Shown here: one piece after another, positions 58,687 to 64,000 of the stretch
Layout: the number at the start of each line of letters is the position of its first letter
How positions within the stretch are numbered: position 1 is the stretch's first letter
Source: Occallatibacter gabretensis
GTDB taxonomy: Bacteria > Acidobacteriota > Terriglobia > Terriglobales > Acidobacteriaceae
Length of the DNA stretch: 64,000 nt
Direction of reading: 5' to 3'
Assembly: GCF_001449115.1 (NCBI RefSeq)
Contig: NZ_LAIJ01000001.1
Location: 1 to 64,000 of the forward strand
Notes under the pieces: generated by a model
Seen by the model: only the letters and a program-made list of their open reading frames with translations
What the model was told of the DNA's origin: nothing
The model's database searches: none
Position numbers and translations under genes: made by a program

Positions 58687-60204
58687 TTAGTCGTACTCAA
58701 TCTCAAAGCAGTTCTGATAGGTCTCCACGCGGTTACGTCCCGCGCGTTTGGCCGAATAGAGAGCCCTGTCTGCGAATTGGATGAGATCTGTTTCATCTTT
58801 TCCAGCGTCCGGAATCATAGCGGCTACGCCAATGCTCACGGTAACGATTCCCGGCGTGTAGGGCATATGAGAGATCTGCGCGTCTGCTACAAGCTGCCGT
58901 ACGCGCTCGGCCAGTGTTACGGCTCCCTGCGCAGAGACGCGCGGCAGAATTACGGCGAACTCCTCGCCTCCATAGCGGGCTACCAGATCGCTGGTTCGCA
59001 GAGATGCACTGGCGAGAATGGATGCGATGCGCCGCAGGCAGTCATCGCCGGCCAGGTGTCCGTAATGGTCGTTGTACAGCTTGAAGTGGTCGATATCAAG
59101 CATCAGCAGCGCCAGGCTGGTTTGCTGGAGCGCAGCGTTCTGCCATTCCAGTGCAAGGTGGCGGTCAAAACTGAACCGGTTCGCAAGACCTGTGGCATGA
59201 TCCTGAGTTGCCAGCGCATCAGCTTCATGAAACGCCGCTGTAATTTCCTGGTGCATTTTGTCGCGCACGCCGAGCGCGGTATTCACGGCGTAGACAATCA
59301 CCAGATTGACGCAGAGAAAGAGCTGCAGGATGAAAAATCCGTGCTGCGCGAGCGTTGCGCCGGAGAGCATGAATGCGCCATGCGCCCGTTCCGTCATGTA
59401 AACCGCAGGAGCAGCCATGAGCAGGATGCCAATTGCCGCCCCGGTAGCGCGCAGCCGGAAGACCGCCACTAGAAGCACGGGAATGACAAGGAAATCGATG
59501 GGCAGGCCAGTCTGTGTGAAGATAAGGATGGAGACGAGCGTAATCGCGGTCCAAATAGCAACGGTCTCCCATCGCTTTTGGGGCGCGAAGAGCGCTTTCA
59601 GTTCCGTTTTATCGATGGCCAGGAATAGCGGCGCCATCAGAGCCATTCCCATCACATCACCGGTGAACCAGTTTGCCAGCAACTCTGGATGCCGCGGATA
59701 GGTCCACACAGCCAGAATCATCTCCAAAAAGCCTGTAGAAGCGAGCGGAGCAAGGAACACTCCGAAGAATAGAAATCGCCCCAGAGTGCGGAAATTTGTC
59801 AGGTCCGGCTTGCGATTGTCCTTAGTGGCCAGTAGAGAAACGGCGATGATGACTTCAACTGTATTCGCCGATGTAAACAGGATGGCGCGGCCCGGCGAAA
59901 AGCCGAATGACATATGCACCGCGATGTTTACGAGGATGCTCGAAGTCAGGTAGACGGACCAGTAGCGCCTGGATGTGGATAGCAGGAATGCGAGCAGCAT
60001 TCCATTCGCAGGCCAAATCAGGTCCGCCACTGCGGGCGTGCGCGTAAGCGCATTCCCGCCCCAGGAGGCGCCAATGTAGAGCAGCATGACAATAGCAAAG
60101 CGGGAAATGGAGTCAGGGAGGACCACTTCAAGGGCGCGCGCCAGGAATGGAGAATCAGAAGGACTGGCTGGGTCCGCATCCACGGCGGGGGAGAATGCCT
60201 TCAT
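58687..60204 (-). CDS. MASE1-GGDEF diguanylate cyclase
   Basis: A 505-residue membrane signalling enzyme that makes cyclic di-GMP. The first 310 residues form a MASE1-type sensor with about eight membrane segments ('GNALTRTPAVADLIWPANGMLLAFLLS', 'ILVNIAVHMSFG'). The last 170 form the GGDEF domain: 'LALLMLDIDHFKLYNDHYGHLAGDDCLRRIA', then 'RTSDLVARYGGEEFAVILPRV'. The GGEEF active site is intact, and RTSD five residues before it matches an RxxD inhibitory site, so product feedback is expected. No EAL or HD-GYP partner is adjacent. Reads as a stand-alone gene. Confidence 0.94.
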   Translation of the reverse strand: MKAFSPAVDADPASPSDSPFLARALEVVLPDSISRFAIVMLLYIGASWGGNALTRTPAVADLIWPANGMLLAFLLSTSRRYWSVYLTSSILVNIAVHMSFGFSPGRAILFTSANTVEVIIAVSLLATKDNRKPDLTNFRTLGRFLFFGVFLAPLASTGFLEMILAVWTYPRHPELLANWFTGDVMGMALMAPLFLAIDKTELKALFAPQKRWETVAIWTAITLVSILIFTQTGLPIDFLVIPVLLVAVFRLRATGAAIGILLMAAPAVYMTERAHGAFMLSGATLAQHGFFILQLFLCVNLVIVYAVNTALGVRDKMHQEITAAFHEADALATQDHATGLANRFSFDRHLALEWQNAALQQTSLALLMLDIDHFKLYNDHYGHLAGDDCLRRIASILASASLRTSDLVARYGGEEFAVILPRVSAQGAVTLAERVRQLVADAQISHMPYTPGIVTVSIGVAAMIPDAGKDETDLIQFADRALYSAKRAGRNRVETYQNCFEIEYD

Positions 60205-60508
60205 TGGGAGCTGTCAGCCTCCGCAGCAAGATATGCTGCGCCTGGCAGCATTTGTTAATAACCAAGGAAGAGCATGTGTCCAACCTACCTTGCAGGCTAA
60301 TCGTTTTCGAAGTTCAAACATGACGGTTCGAGTCACGATCCCAGTGGCTAACCTCGCCATGTTCCTGGTTTTCAAGTCCTGTATTTACATTCAGGATAGC
60401 CGGAATTCATGCACAATGGAAGGCAAATCGGCAAACAGGTCTCATCCGAAAGCGACCATAGCAAAACGTTGTTATGCGAAATGAATACGGCCCTTTTGAT
60501 CGCTGCGA
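60205..60508. other. Gap between the M28 peptidase stop and the cyclase start
   Basis: About 300 bases on the tail side of the peptidase and the promoter side of the GGDEF gene. I see no hairpin with a T-run and no credible gene; the cyclase promoter should be here but is not recognisable. Confidence 0.45.
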
Positions 60509-62017
60509 TTACCTCGGCGCCGGTTCTGCGGAGTCAGCCAGTGCATATGCCAGTACTGTCATCACGGTCGCGTTCTGGTTCAGGTGGACGAAATCGATCT
60601 TGTCAAAGGTGTCCGCCGGCGTGTGGTGGTAGTTGAAGTAGAACCGGCTATCCTGAATCGGCGCGAAGCTCGGTACGCCGTTCTCGGTCAGCCCGTTGAT
60701 ATCCTCGCCGGTCTCGGGCGAATCCTTCAGGACTTCTGCTCCGATTGGTTCCAGGATCGCTGAGAGCGGCCGTAGATACGCTCCCAGTGCTGGTTTGCCC
60801 GCATAGTAGATGCCCGTAGGATGATCAGCGCCCAGATCGCTCTCAATTGCGCCAATGTGGTTGCTGAATTCCGCCTTATGTTCTGCCATATATGCGGCAG
60901 CGCCCTGCGACCCTTCTTCTTCACTCATCCACGCCACGAAACGGACCGTCCGCTTTGGATGAATTCCGAGCTCTTTGAGCATGTGAATCGCCTGCATGGA
61001 AACCGCAACGCCAGCCCCATCGTCAATCGCGCCTGTGCCGAGATCCCAGGAGTCCAGATGGCCGGAGACAATGACGACCTGCTCGGGATGTTCGGTTCCT
61101 TTCCAGTCGGCGATGACGTTAAAGCTCGGCGCGTCCGGCAGGGTCTGGGGCGTCAGCGTGAGGTGAAGCTTGATCGGTCCCTGGCCGGCCAGATTCTTCA
61201 GCAGCTCCGCGTCCTCGGCGGTGACTGCGGCGGCGGGAATCTTTGGCGTTCCCGGGGCGTACTCCGTCATGCCTGTGTGCGGAATGCGGAAGTCAGCGCC
61301 GCCGACCGAGCGCACCAGCACCGCCGCGGCTCCGGCGGTGGCTGCGAAGATGGGTCCTGCGCCGCGATAGACGACTCCATTGCCGTATGCGTTCAAGCCA
61401 TCGCCATTTGCTGCCAGTTCTTTATCAAACTTGTGGTTGAAGAGCAGGATTTTGCCCTTGACGGCTCCGGCGGGCAGAGCCTGGAGCTGCTGGAAGTTCT
61501 CGACTACAACAACTTCAGCGGTAATTCCATCCGCGGGTGTTGCTACGCTGCCGCCGAGCGCAGTTAAAACTACCTTCTGCGTGGTTCCGGGAGTCTGGCC
61601 CGGCCAGCTTACCAACTGGGCGGTTTCCTCGCCGCGAACCCAGTGAGGCACCATTGCTTTTTCGAGCGTTACCTCTGCGCCTAGCGCGCGCATCTCTGCC
61701 GCTACGTAGTCCACTGCCTGCTGAGCCTGCGGAGACCCGCTCAGGCGCGGGCCGATGTTGTCCGTCAGGTGATGCAACTCGTTGTATGCGTACGGGTCTT
61801 TCATCGCTGCATCGCGCAGCCGTTCCATCGTGGCCAACTGCTCAGGAGTCCATGCGCTCTTTCCGCCCGTTCCAAGGAAGGCGTTCAGGCGGTCCATCAT
61901 GCTTGTTGGAGCGGCGGGAGATGGCTGCTGCTGGGCCTGTGCCGGAACGCAAGCCAATGCGGCGGCAGCACACATGGAGGCAGCTGCAAGTGCAGGTGTC
62001 CTGAAATGGAAGGTCAT
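60509..62017 (-). CDS. Exported M28 family aminopeptidase/carboxypeptidase with PA domain
   Basis: A 502-residue zinc exopeptidase with signal peptide ('AAASMCAAAALACVPAQAQ'); I start at 62017, since the frame upstream has no signal. A PA-type insert ('VVVENFQQLQALPAGAVKGKILLFNH') lies near residues 160-260. The M28 core has 'VIVSGHLDSWDLGTGAIDDGAG' (His, Asp), 'VAWMSEEEGSQGAAAY' (catalytic Glu pair), 'AIESDLGADHPTG' (Asp) and 'YFNYHHTPADTFDKIDF' (His). It cleaves residues from peptide ends in the periplasm or outside. It joins the S10, M19 and S53 enzymes of this window in peptide use. Confidence 0.92.
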   Translation of the reverse strand: MTFHFRTPALAAASMCAAAALACVPAQAQQQPSPAAPTSMMDRLNAFLGTGGKSAWTPEQLATMERLRDAAMKDPYAYNELHHLTDNIGPRLSGSPQAQQAVDYVAAEMRALGAEVTLEKAMVPHWVRGEETAQLVSWPGQTPGTTQKVVLTALGGSVATPADGITAEVVVVENFQQLQALPAGAVKGKILLFNHKFDKELAANGDGLNAYGNGVVYRGAGPIFAATAGAAAVLVRSVGGADFRIPHTGMTEYAPGTPKIPAAAVTAEDAELLKNLAGQGPIKLHLTLTPQTLPDAPSFNVIADWKGTEHPEQVVIVSGHLDSWDLGTGAIDDGAGVAVSMQAIHMLKELGIHPKRTVRFVAWMSEEEGSQGAAAYMAEHKAEFSNHIGAIESDLGADHPTGIYYAGKPALGAYLRPLSAILEPIGAEVLKDSPETGEDINGLTENGVPSFAPIQDSRFYFNYHHTPADTFDKIDFVHLNQNATVMTVLAYALADSAEPAPR

Positions 62018-62253
62018 GCCGGATGTTACCACGTAACCTCTGGGTGATTCAGCCGTCGCAGAGAGGTGGGCGGATTTTCGATTTCGGTATAAATGCATGA
62101 GTCATCTGTGCAGGGGTGATTTCGAAGTGGTTTAGTTTTAGCGTGTTGCGGACTTCCGCACAGTTCTTACGTAAATCTTTATGCGATCTTTATTTCGGGG
62201 CTGTGCAACCGGACTGTACTGCATTACGGCTTTTGCACTGATTCTGGTGCAGT

Positions 62254-62275
62254 GGGGATGGGGGAGGGGGAGGGG
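62254..62275 (+). other. G-quadruplex motif
   Basis: Four runs of 4-5 G separated by loops of AT, A and A. Such short loops favour a very stable parallel quadruplex in DNA or RNA. It precedes the orphan hairpin by about 20 bases. Confidence 0.75.
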
Positions 62276-62286
62276 TCCTTCCCTTA

Positions 62287-62341
62287 CAAAAACGGCCACG
62301 GCCCGAACCAGTGGAGGCTCGAGCCGTGGCTGTTCTTCTCT
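62287..62341. terminator. Orphan terminator-like hairpin, possibly bidirectional
   Basis: GCCACGGC (62295-62302) pairs with GCCGTGGC (62323-62330) around a 20-base loop. On the minus strand the stem is followed by CG and TTTTTG (the A-run at 62288-62292); on the plus strand by TGTTCTTCTCTT. It lies between the divergent M28 and htrA genes, where no annotated gene would end. Confidence 0.65.
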
Positions 62342-62575
62342 TGATTATAAGTAGAGCACAAACGAGGTTAATAGTACGCAAAGTTTCCGCGAGAGATGGG
62401 GTTACGAAAGGACAATGGACGAAAGTAATGTGCGGGTGGAGCGGGGACAGGAAAAGTGAAGGCGTACCCGTCCATTACGTACAGAGATGCTTCTGAGGAA
62501 ATGCGTCCGACCGGATGGAGAATTGATACGTCTATAACATTGTGGGTAGTGGGTCAGTTCGGATAAAAATCTTCC

Positions 62576-62640
62576 CCTCAGGGGCTAAAGCCCGATTGAT
62601 TCAGAGGCGTTTTTTGATGTACAGGCTGAAGCCCGTACCC
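62576..62640. repeat. Short dispersed palindromic repeat, copy 2
   Basis: CCTCAGGGGCTAAAGCCC (62576-62593) matches copy 1 at 11790. It is followed by a second small fold, GGCTGAAGCC flanked by GTAC on both sides (within about 62619-62637), a layout I recall for this acidobacterial repeat family. It lies about 120 bases before htrA. Confidence 0.7.
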
Positions 62641-62759
62641 TTCAAACTGAATCACTATCTAATAAGGCCGTGCGACGGACAGCAAAGGCGCATGCTGGCT
62701 ATACTGATGAAATGACAGACCCAGCCGCAGGCTGGCAATAGAACGAGGTTCTGACACTG

Positions 62760-64000
62760 ATGAAATCTTTTCTTGAACGGCTGCGCACACGCCGTCTCGC
62801 AACGGCATTTGTGGTGTTGGCCGGTCTTTCGGCGGCAATTCTTTGTATCTCCTATGCCGCGCATGGTGTCAGTGGGCAGGAGATGCAGAACGCGAGCAGC
62901 GATGCGACACCACTGAAAGTGTCCAACTCGCCTGTCGCTGCGCCGAATGAGTTTGTCAAGATCGCCAAGCAGGTTGGTCCGGCTGTGGTGAATATCAATA
63001 CGCAGACCCTTCCCAAGCAATCCAGCAGCCGCATGCCGCATCGCCTTCCGCATGGCAGGACTGCGCCCCAGCCGCAGAACCCGGACGATCAGGACAGCCC
63101 GGACGGCGGTCAGGGCGGAGGGCAGGATGGCCAGGGCGGCTTCCAGGACTTTTTCAATCATTTCTTTGGCGGACAGGGGCAGGATGGCGAAGGGGATGAT
63201 GGCCAGGTGCGCGAGTCGCTAGGATCGGGCTTCATTGTCGATTCCAAGGGATACATCATTACCAACAACCATGTCATCGAGAAGGCCGACAAGATCTTCG
63301 TCAAGCTCTCGACCGACCCCGATACCCAGGACCTGGGACGTCCGGCGCGCGTGATTGGCGTGGATAAAGCCACCGATATCGCGGTCATTAAAATCGATAT
63401 GAACACGCCGCTTCCGACTGTGAAGCTGGGCAACAGCGACAATACCCAGGTGGGTGACTGGGTTGAGGCGATTGGCAGCCCCTTCGCGCTGGCGCAGACG
63501 GTTACCGCGGGCATCATCTCCGCCAAGAACCGCACCATTGAGCCCGGGCAGCAGGGCCAGTTTCAGCACTTTATTCAGACCGATGCCGCGATCAATCCAG
63601 GCAACTCCGGCGGACCGCTGCTGAATATGAACGGCGAAGTGATTGGCATGAATACTGCCATTTACACGCAGAGCGCGGGCTACCAGGGTATTGGCTTCGC
63701 GATGCCTTCAAACACCATCGTGGACATTTACAACGACCTTGTCAGTCCCAGCCATAAGGTGGTGCGTGGTTCTATCGGCATCAGCTTCAAGCAGGGACTC
63801 CCTGGCGCTGTGAACCGCATGTATGGCTTCAAGAGCGGAGTGTTGGTGCAGTATGTGCAGCCGGGCGGTCCTGCGGAGAAGGCCGGGCTGCAGCCGGGCG
63901 ACATTATTGTGACCATTGATGGCCGCTCCATCAAGGATGGCGATGACCTGGTCAACGACATTGCCGCGCGCCGGCCTGGTTCAAGCGCGCGCCTGGGCTA
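62760..64000 (+). CDS. HtrA/DegP-type periplasmic serine protease (3' end outside the window)
   Basis: At least 413 residues, still open at the right edge. It starts at the ATG at 62760 and has an N-terminal membrane segment ('LATAFVVLAGLSAAILCISY'). A low-complexity Gln/Gly/Asp linker covers about 80-140. The trypsin-like domain has His in 'IITNNHVIEKAD', Asp in 'ATDIAVIKID' and Ser in 'AINPGNSGGPLLN'; the first PDZ domain follows ('GSIGISFKQG', 'VQPGGPAEKAGLQPGDIIVTIDG'). HtrA proteins degrade or refold damaged envelope proteins. Usual full length is about 450-520, so only the end, perhaps a second PDZ domain, is missing. Confidence 0.95.
   Translation, partial: MKSFLERLRTRRLATAFVVLAGLSAAILCISYAAHGVSGQEMQNASSDATPLKVSNSPVAAPNEFVKIAKQVGPAVVNINTQTLPKQSSSRMPHRLPHGRTAPQPQNPDDQDSPDGGQGGGQDGQGGFQDFFNHFFGGQGQDGEGDDGQVRESLGSGFIVDSKGYIITNNHVIEKADKIFVKLSTDPDTQDLGRPARVIGVDKATDIAVIKIDMNTPLPTVKLGNSDNTQVGDWVEAIGSPFALAQTVTAGIISAKNRTIEPGQQGQFQHFIQTDAAINPGNSGGPLLNMNGEVIGMNTAIYTQSAGYQGIGFAMPSNTIVDIYNDLVSPSHKVVRGSIGISFKQGLPGAVNRMYGFKSGVLVQYVQPGGPAEKAGLQPGDIIVTIDGRSIKDGDDLVNDIAARRPGSSARLG

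Follow-up and report, generated by a model that had tools for sequence, protein, structure and literature searches.

A dispersed repeat between the M28 peptidase and htrA genes of Occallatibacter gabretensis, probably the remnant of a mobile small-gene cassette that lost its gene

Introduction

Among the short repeats that populate bacterial genomes, miniature inverted-repeat transposable elements (MITEs) such as the Correia elements, SPRITE and BOX are characterized, in the passages of PMC10969869 that concern them, as short, intergenic and high-copy sequences with promoter- and terminator-like parts. The REP/BIME sequences that go with RAYT transposases are portrayed in sections of PMC2817692 as dispersed and palindromic, with complementary changes in the palindrome. 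At the level of operators, parts of PMC4415409 give the PHO box as two units repeated every 11 bp and name amtB among the targets of PhoP in Streptomyces.

Here we analyse an intergenic region of Occallatibacter gabretensis (contig NZ_LAIJ01000001.1) in the light of these systems. The window, i.e. the whole stretch of 64 000 nucleotides that was analysed (positions 1–64 000), contains near its right end an M28 peptidase gene on the minus strand (start taken as 62017) and an HtrA-type protease gene on the plus strand (start 62760), divergent neighbours, as an earlier note on this DNA had said, that are separated by 742 bp. That note had proposed the gap as an undescribed structured RNA with a quadruplex and a terminator, possibly regulating htrA or the M28 gene.

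Results

Anatomy of the window copy. The feature proper occupies about 350 bp of the gap (62078–62430, ends judged by eye from aligned copies), less than the 62018–62759 that had been taken before, and is identified by genome matches as one of at least 97 copies of a dispersed element, here in minus orientation with respect to the putative cassette. The left extension (TTCGATTTCGG... in this copy, 62078–62098) is present in approximately 16 copies, counted by eye, and is followed by a type-1 distal block running from GAGTTATCCTGTGC... to CTGTGCA (62099–62207). This block holds the core TCTTTATGCGATCTTTAT (62176–62193, plus strand), an 11-bp direct repeat resembling a response-regulator box, and around it an inverted repeat, GCACAG (62158–62163)/CTGTGC (62201–62206), which is the first of two smaller hairpins already reported; the second, TGCAC..GTGCA (62234–62251), is represented by its motif in 20 of the 97 copies, no more than 420 nt to the left of the stem. 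The other parts described earlier could likewise be read directly from the letters: the G-rich tract GGGG-AT-GGGGG-A-GGGGG-A-GGGG (62254–62275, plus strand) and, 20 nt past it, the 8-bp stem (GCCACGGC, 62295–62302; GCCGTGGC, 62323–62330) of a terminator-like stem-loop (62295–62330) flanked by T-runs on either side, namely an A-run at 62288–62292 (a T-run on the minus strand) and TGTTCTTCTCTT after the stem on the plus strand. The minus strand then carries a promoter-like TTAACC-16-TATAAT (62344–62371; 10 of 12 matches) and a box, TTTGCGTACTATT (62370–62382), agreeing at 9 of 11 positions with TTTGCANANAATT, a motif that also occurs upstream of small genes in the genus. The remainder of the tail (62383–62430) ends in ...TACGAAAGGACAATGGACGAAAGTAATG. 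This copy is imperfect, as the −35 hexamer and the box deviate and the plus-strand T-run is broken. Elsewhere in the gap, 62581–62633 is a REP-type pair (GGGGCTAAAGCCC ... GGCTGAAGCC) belonging to a separate family unrelated to the element and found in 32 of the 60 genomes searched (own genome included), with up to 25 exact matches per genome.

A dispersed family. Searched as DNA against its own genome (5.35 Mb, 19 contigs), the gap gave at least 50 matching pieces, mostly 68–80% identical, that merged into at least approximately 40 places, one of which matched the REP-type part only; scoring covered 40 of 109 candidates. From aligned copies we built a model of the stem plus tail, i.e. the right half of the element (hereafter R1), and its search of the genome, with 150 of 1273 candidates scored, gave at least 117 matches (E ≤ 0.01), reverse matches of the palindrome included. 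A second R1 pass over 98 loci produced 124 rows, of which 97 were kept as copies; the 27 dropped rows were 24 short reverse matches of the palindrome, two that overlapped a kept row on the opposite strand, and L142, a partial copy that is genuine but short. Copy numbers are lower bounds because only part of the candidates was scored, and the figure of 97 also leaves out copies lacking the right half (such as L025), a half that all 97 share by construction of the search. The core motif TCTTYATGCGATCTTYAT was found at 53 sites in the same genome at up to two mismatches, and its reversed control at none. Left halves, assigned by regular expressions, comprised 48 of type 1 (the type of the window copy), 22 of type 2, six each of two others and 15 unassigned; the 34 full type-1 copies span 256–631 nt, 32 of them 256–429 nt. 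Copies are scattered over the contigs rather than arrayed, an observation that bears on integron-type cassettes. The recurrence of the element in at least 97 dispersed places overturns the idea of a one-off local RNA. Our literature searches, whose scope lay outside subscription papers and preprints, returned no description of such a family, and within the searches named here the element is apparently undescribed.

Some copies show further features in their surroundings. The right flanks of L010, L026, L040, L108, L109, L111, L112, L114, L123 and L128 contain similar sequences of the kind AAAAGCAGGTCCTTC, in many cases preceded by low-complexity DNA resembling GGGACTGA. In L093, from the congener G020, an inverted tail-like piece (GTTACTAAAGTCCAATGGTCC) adjoins a GCAC..GTGC hairpin, an arrangement that suggests module shuffling, and L101 is similar but less clear.

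Absence from relatives. R1 was searched in 60 genomes, i.e. the window's own and 59 others, 35 of which belong to the same genus. No match was obtained in 58 of these 59; the exception, G020, had 17 weaker matches, 10 of which covered only part of the model. The exact tail pattern was found neither in genome_contigs nor in viral_contigs, and a DNA search with one copy gave no match in phages and plasmids, all of these being collections that may omit the window's own genome. The best protein relatives of the M28 peptidase in named genomes came from assemblies of Acidobacteriaceae and Acidobacteriales, one of which bears the label Terracidiphilus. Comparison of 32 named loci showed that the M28/htrA pair is kept in 24, with gaps of approximately 144–439 bp vs. 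742 bp in the window, and is not syntenic in eight; an R1 scan of 27 named loci, including 23 of the 24 syntenic ones (all but L233), gave no match. In eight congeners, which belong to the genomes without an R1 match, the two genes still lie side by side in divergent orientation, approximately 186–352 bp apart as computed by hand on the assumption of an unchanged N-terminus length. Across relatives, alignment of the gap is limited to its gene-proximal ends. These short gaps without the element indicate that it arrived in the window's lineage and is not part of the gene pair. The htrA site of G020, which does carry the family, is uninformative in this respect because only weak M28-like fragments lie beside htrA.

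The suggestion that the structure may regulate htrA or M28 did not survive this comparison, one that the earlier note had itself listed as a way to refute it, given that relatives sharing the flanking genes (24 syntenic, 23 of them scanned) have no such stem. A cis-regulatory RNA of either gene, to which the position of the element would point, is very improbable when the pair exists with short gaps in 24 named relatives (no match in the 23 scanned) and eight congeners, and when the genome holds at least 96 further copies at other places; that the element controls htrA or M28 is likewise unlikely.

The stem and its terminator-like character. The 61-nt stem region folds at −29.6 kcal/mol on the plus strand and −38.3 kcal/mol on the minus strand (z −4.8 and −7.6; none of 200 shuffles equal), and the 145 nt before the stem, with two hairpins and the G-run, reached only z −2.4 (four of 200 shuffles equal). 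Pattern scans over 1.8 kb barely exceeded shuffles, both for terminators (2 vs. 1.5 ± 1.2) and for promoters (2 vs. 0.8 ± 0.8). In 31 copies, 98.2% of stem cells pair, and five of 13 stem pairs are changed on both sides in 25 cells, vs. 7.4 in shuffles (0/500 reaching the observed value) and 0–4 in slid controls, while in all 97 copies 1046 of 1101 ungapped pair cells are Watson–Crick. The strongest long-range values of mutual information fall on the stem pairs. Beyond the stem no base-pair-like covariation was detected, the weaker associations between tail columns (such as 120–138 and 146–184) being not pair-like, and RNAalifold on block A returned only weak pairs (−0.26 kcal/mol). Of the RNA proposed in the earlier note, the stem is real and conserved, and the absence of pair-like covariation outside it makes a larger structured RNA unlikely.

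A T-run (at least four T in the 8 nt past the stem) is present on the plus strand in 61 and on the minus strand in 50 of the 97 copies, the control rates being 10% for random places and 25% for element DNA close by, and the median stem energy is −26.5 kcal/mol. A GC-rich stem followed by a U-run, as in intrinsic terminators, is therefore found at the sequence level in both directions and, with the stem kept by compensatory substitutions across copies, the terminator recognized in the earlier note is real as far as sequence can tell. Since the promoter-like TTAACC-16-TATAAT lies just before the stem, the minus strand could plausibly give rise to a short RNA with its end near 62288.

These data bear on another explanation, in which the elements form a multi-copy small-RNA family whose product is a short terminated hairpin RNA from the minus strand, the gene-bearing copies being by-products. 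The strong stem with its compensatory changes, the promoter-like hexamers directly before it and the better fold of the window copy on the minus strand all agree with this explanation, yet wobble-type cells favour neither strand clearly (G–U on minus in 25, on plus in 17, p 0.28, not significant), base-pair-like covariation is confined to the stem, and Rfam gave no match above the gathering score in 60000–64000, where three sub-threshold matches were seen. On balance we regard it as rather unlikely.

The G-rich tract. The earlier note had put forward conservation of both stem and quadruplex as a check, and here the two part company: the stem is kept by compensatory changes, whereas a four-run quadruplex pattern within 150 nt left of the stem is found in only seven of the 97 copies, the window copy included. 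A G-rich tract as such recurs: at up to one mismatch, GGGGGAGGGG was found in 46 of the 97 copies in the 420 nt to the left of the stem, and by a strict pattern a C-rich arm comes after the tract in 12 of the 25 copies whose G-rich arm is near the stem. The window copy has TCCTTCCCTT in place of the C-rich arm, and its G-run is longer. Given its rarity among copies with a recurrent G-rich tract, the window quadruplex is a copy-specific variant, namely a G-rich arm whose C-rich partner changed, and is incidental.

Ends and flanks. No terminal inverted repeats were detected in the 34 full type-1 copies, the inward end match averaging 4.1 and 4.6 (for two assumed left ends) vs. 4.6 in shuffles. 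Neither was there a target-site duplication in the flanks of the 34 copies, where 3570 tests against shuffled pairing reached at best z 4.1. With genes called by a crude codon-bias ORF caller, the orientation of neighbours is biased on the tail side, 64 of 95 copies having a gene there that points towards the element (p 0.0009), and unbiased on the other side (50/96).

A MITE, i.e. the non-autonomous relic of an insertion sequence, would share with our element a short length, mostly intergenic placement, high copy number (97 copies) and lineage restriction, as well as the promoter-like and terminator-like parts that known MITEs have in the passages of PMC10969869. However, the ends match inwardly no better than shuffles, the flanks give no duplication signal, and one right half is shared by different left halves; we did not file the element as a MITE because of the missing inverted repeats and target duplications, and judge this origin unlikely. 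An even lower probability is given to a DNA element of the BIME kind, retained because it binds protein or helps to form mRNA 3′ ends, in which position and hairpin matter rather than mobility. Such a role is suggested by the orientation of tail-side genes and by the T-runs on both sides of the stem, but a housekeeping function does not fit absence from 34 of the 35 congeners searched.

Promoter-like sequences, box and small-gene cargo. Among the 68 of 97 copies in which the tail is readable, CATAAT is found on the minus strand in 56 and at least four T in the 10 nt past CGGGCC in 62, counts made with no shuffle control. Seven of the 97 copies bear a small minus-strand gene, located between left block and stem, preceded by a GGAG-type ribosome site and, by eye, with a T-tract past the stem in the direction of the gene in all seven. 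Six of these genes encode ribbon-helix-helix-like (RHH-like) proteins, that of L069 apparently truncated, and the seventh (L149) an unrelated 126-amino-acid protein. The gene is lost in the window copy, where a search for an RHH relic gave chance-level matches only. The four of six RHH-like proteins scanned against Pfam resemble DUF6364, DUF6290 or CopG_antitoxin below the curated cut-offs (best DUF6364, 23.9 vs. 27.3 bits). A single weak match was obtained in the PDB (antitoxin 7e4j, E 0.68), and NCBIfam and PADLOC gave nothing useful for the four proteins searched in each.

A profile built from the six RHH-like proteins recovered all six in their own genome with no other strong match and a weak seventh, and gave two strong matches in G020. 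Both G020 genes have the promoter box upstream, lie on contigs that are not among the R1 matches listed and, by eye, show no stem between box and gene; the attenuator is thus not general, and at the sequence level the association of promoter and gene extends further than the hairpin does. In the 126-amino-acid family, 18 of 29 genes have the box TTTGCANANAATT (at least 9/11) upstream (vs. 1.7% of shuffles; 30 loci given), as have eight of 21 RHH genes (vs. 1.2%; 30 loci given), two of these eight being elements of the window's genome, but the counts are only descriptive because the consensus was picked by eye partly from loci that were then scored. In three congeners (four loci), the 126-amino-acid gene comes after a tyrosine-recombinase-like gene, and the one of these four recombinase-like genes that was scanned matched Pfam Phage_integrase; we take this neighbour as a lead for a mobiliser, no more. 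A multi-copy small-protein family (IRDFIACV..LLYAAQVA; L304, L305, L317, L302), with no Pfam match, occurs in 17 of the 37 genomes searched (own included) and comes after a tyrosine-recombinase-like gene in three congeners.

The distal block and its core repeat. Spacing in type 1 is rigid in the 32 copies that have all landmarks, with 76–77 nt from head to core and 13 nt from core to CTGTGCA; the window copy is outside this set, its head being altered (GAGTCATCTGTGC). L017, L035, L037 and L070 have two tandem cores exactly 99 bp apart, and in the second of them the half-sites have changed places (TCTTCAT..TCTTTAT type). The core is seldom met outside elements: 58 other congeners contained six single-mismatch sites, of which two lie before amtB, one before a DUF4118 protein, two before proteins that by eye resemble outer-membrane receptors, and one in an unclear context. 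In the own genome, one core site (two mismatches) precedes a glutamine-synthetase-type gene and another adjoins a gene with a carboxypeptidase-regulatory domain. A core score of at least 14/18 was reached in 15 of 30 amtB upstream regions (29 congeners plus the own genome; two of the 15 known from the earlier core scan) vs. 1/900 mononucleotide shuffles, and the own genome's amtB, at 12/18 only, has no good core. The kdp promoter was considered as an origin of the core and rejected, with no site at up to five mismatches in the kdpA locus. The 11-bp spacing fits boxes of the OmpR/PhoB family as given in parts of PMC4415409, and the repeat looks like the operator of a host response regulator.

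Discussion

We propose that the window feature is probably what remains of a mobile small-gene cassette after loss of its gene, a lineage-restricted element of high copy number that inserted between M28 and htrA. Read in the minus orientation, the cassette would begin with a promoter (62382–62344), followed directly after the expected start site by a hairpin terminator (62330–62288), then by the place of a small RHH-like gene, kept in six other copies and lost in this one, and finally by a distal block whose 11-bp direct repeat is host-operator-like. Such an element would spread as a mobile cassette with a working promoter, the hairpin presumably ending most transcripts before the gene (attenuation) and stopping read-through both ways, and a host regulator may bind the 11-bp repeat. 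The likely present effect of the window copy would be that of a bidirectional terminator combined with a terminated minus-strand RNA of approximately 50 nt. Against a cassette speak the lack of terminal inverted repeats and target-site duplications, the presence of the gene in only seven of 97 copies and RHH matches below the Pfam cut-offs.

More tentatively, and with appreciable doubt, the members of the family could be small mobile gene cassettes of a new class within Acidobacteriaceae, defined by a box, a self-silencing terminator, a small protein and exchangeable operator blocks. Members of this class would have a shared promoter box, a promoter-proximal terminator silencing their own gene and an RHH-like or other small protein, their exchangeable distal blocks would carry operator repeats spaced by 11 bp, and they would settle preferentially behind genes by a mechanism free of inverted repeats. 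If this is true, an amtB-operator-like site copied approximately 50 times may re-wire or titrate a host nutrient regulator. An isolated oddity becomes a testable genome-wide family in a soil bacterium, raising the questions of how repeats without inverted ends spread in bacteria and of whether a mobile element can bring its own attenuator and a host operator to approximately 50 new sites. It also carries a warning: before a structured gap in a single genome is called an RNA, one should look for copies of it dispersed elsewhere.

Compared with the known systems, the element is like Correia, SPRITE and BOX, as far as the cited passages describe them, in being short, intergenic and high-copy with promoter-like and terminator-like parts, and unlike these MITEs in having no terminal inverted repeats or target-site duplications, a small gene in its fullest copies and several left halves. 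It shares with REP/BIME, in the sections cited, dispersal and a palindrome with complementary changes, but measures approximately 350 bp vs. a few tens of nucleotides and has promoter and gene parts. The cargo proteins resemble, below cut-off, the RHH families of orphan CopG/VapB-like antitoxin genes; unlike at those genes, there is no room for a toxin, since the distal block follows directly after the gene in the three copies having both gene and head (L039, L069 and L074), the frame of L069 even entering the block. Finally, although its core sequence differs from that of PHO-box-type tandem operators (OmpR/PhoB family), the element resembles them, on the parts of PMC4415409 cited above, in core units 11 bp apart and in having amtB among the candidate targets.
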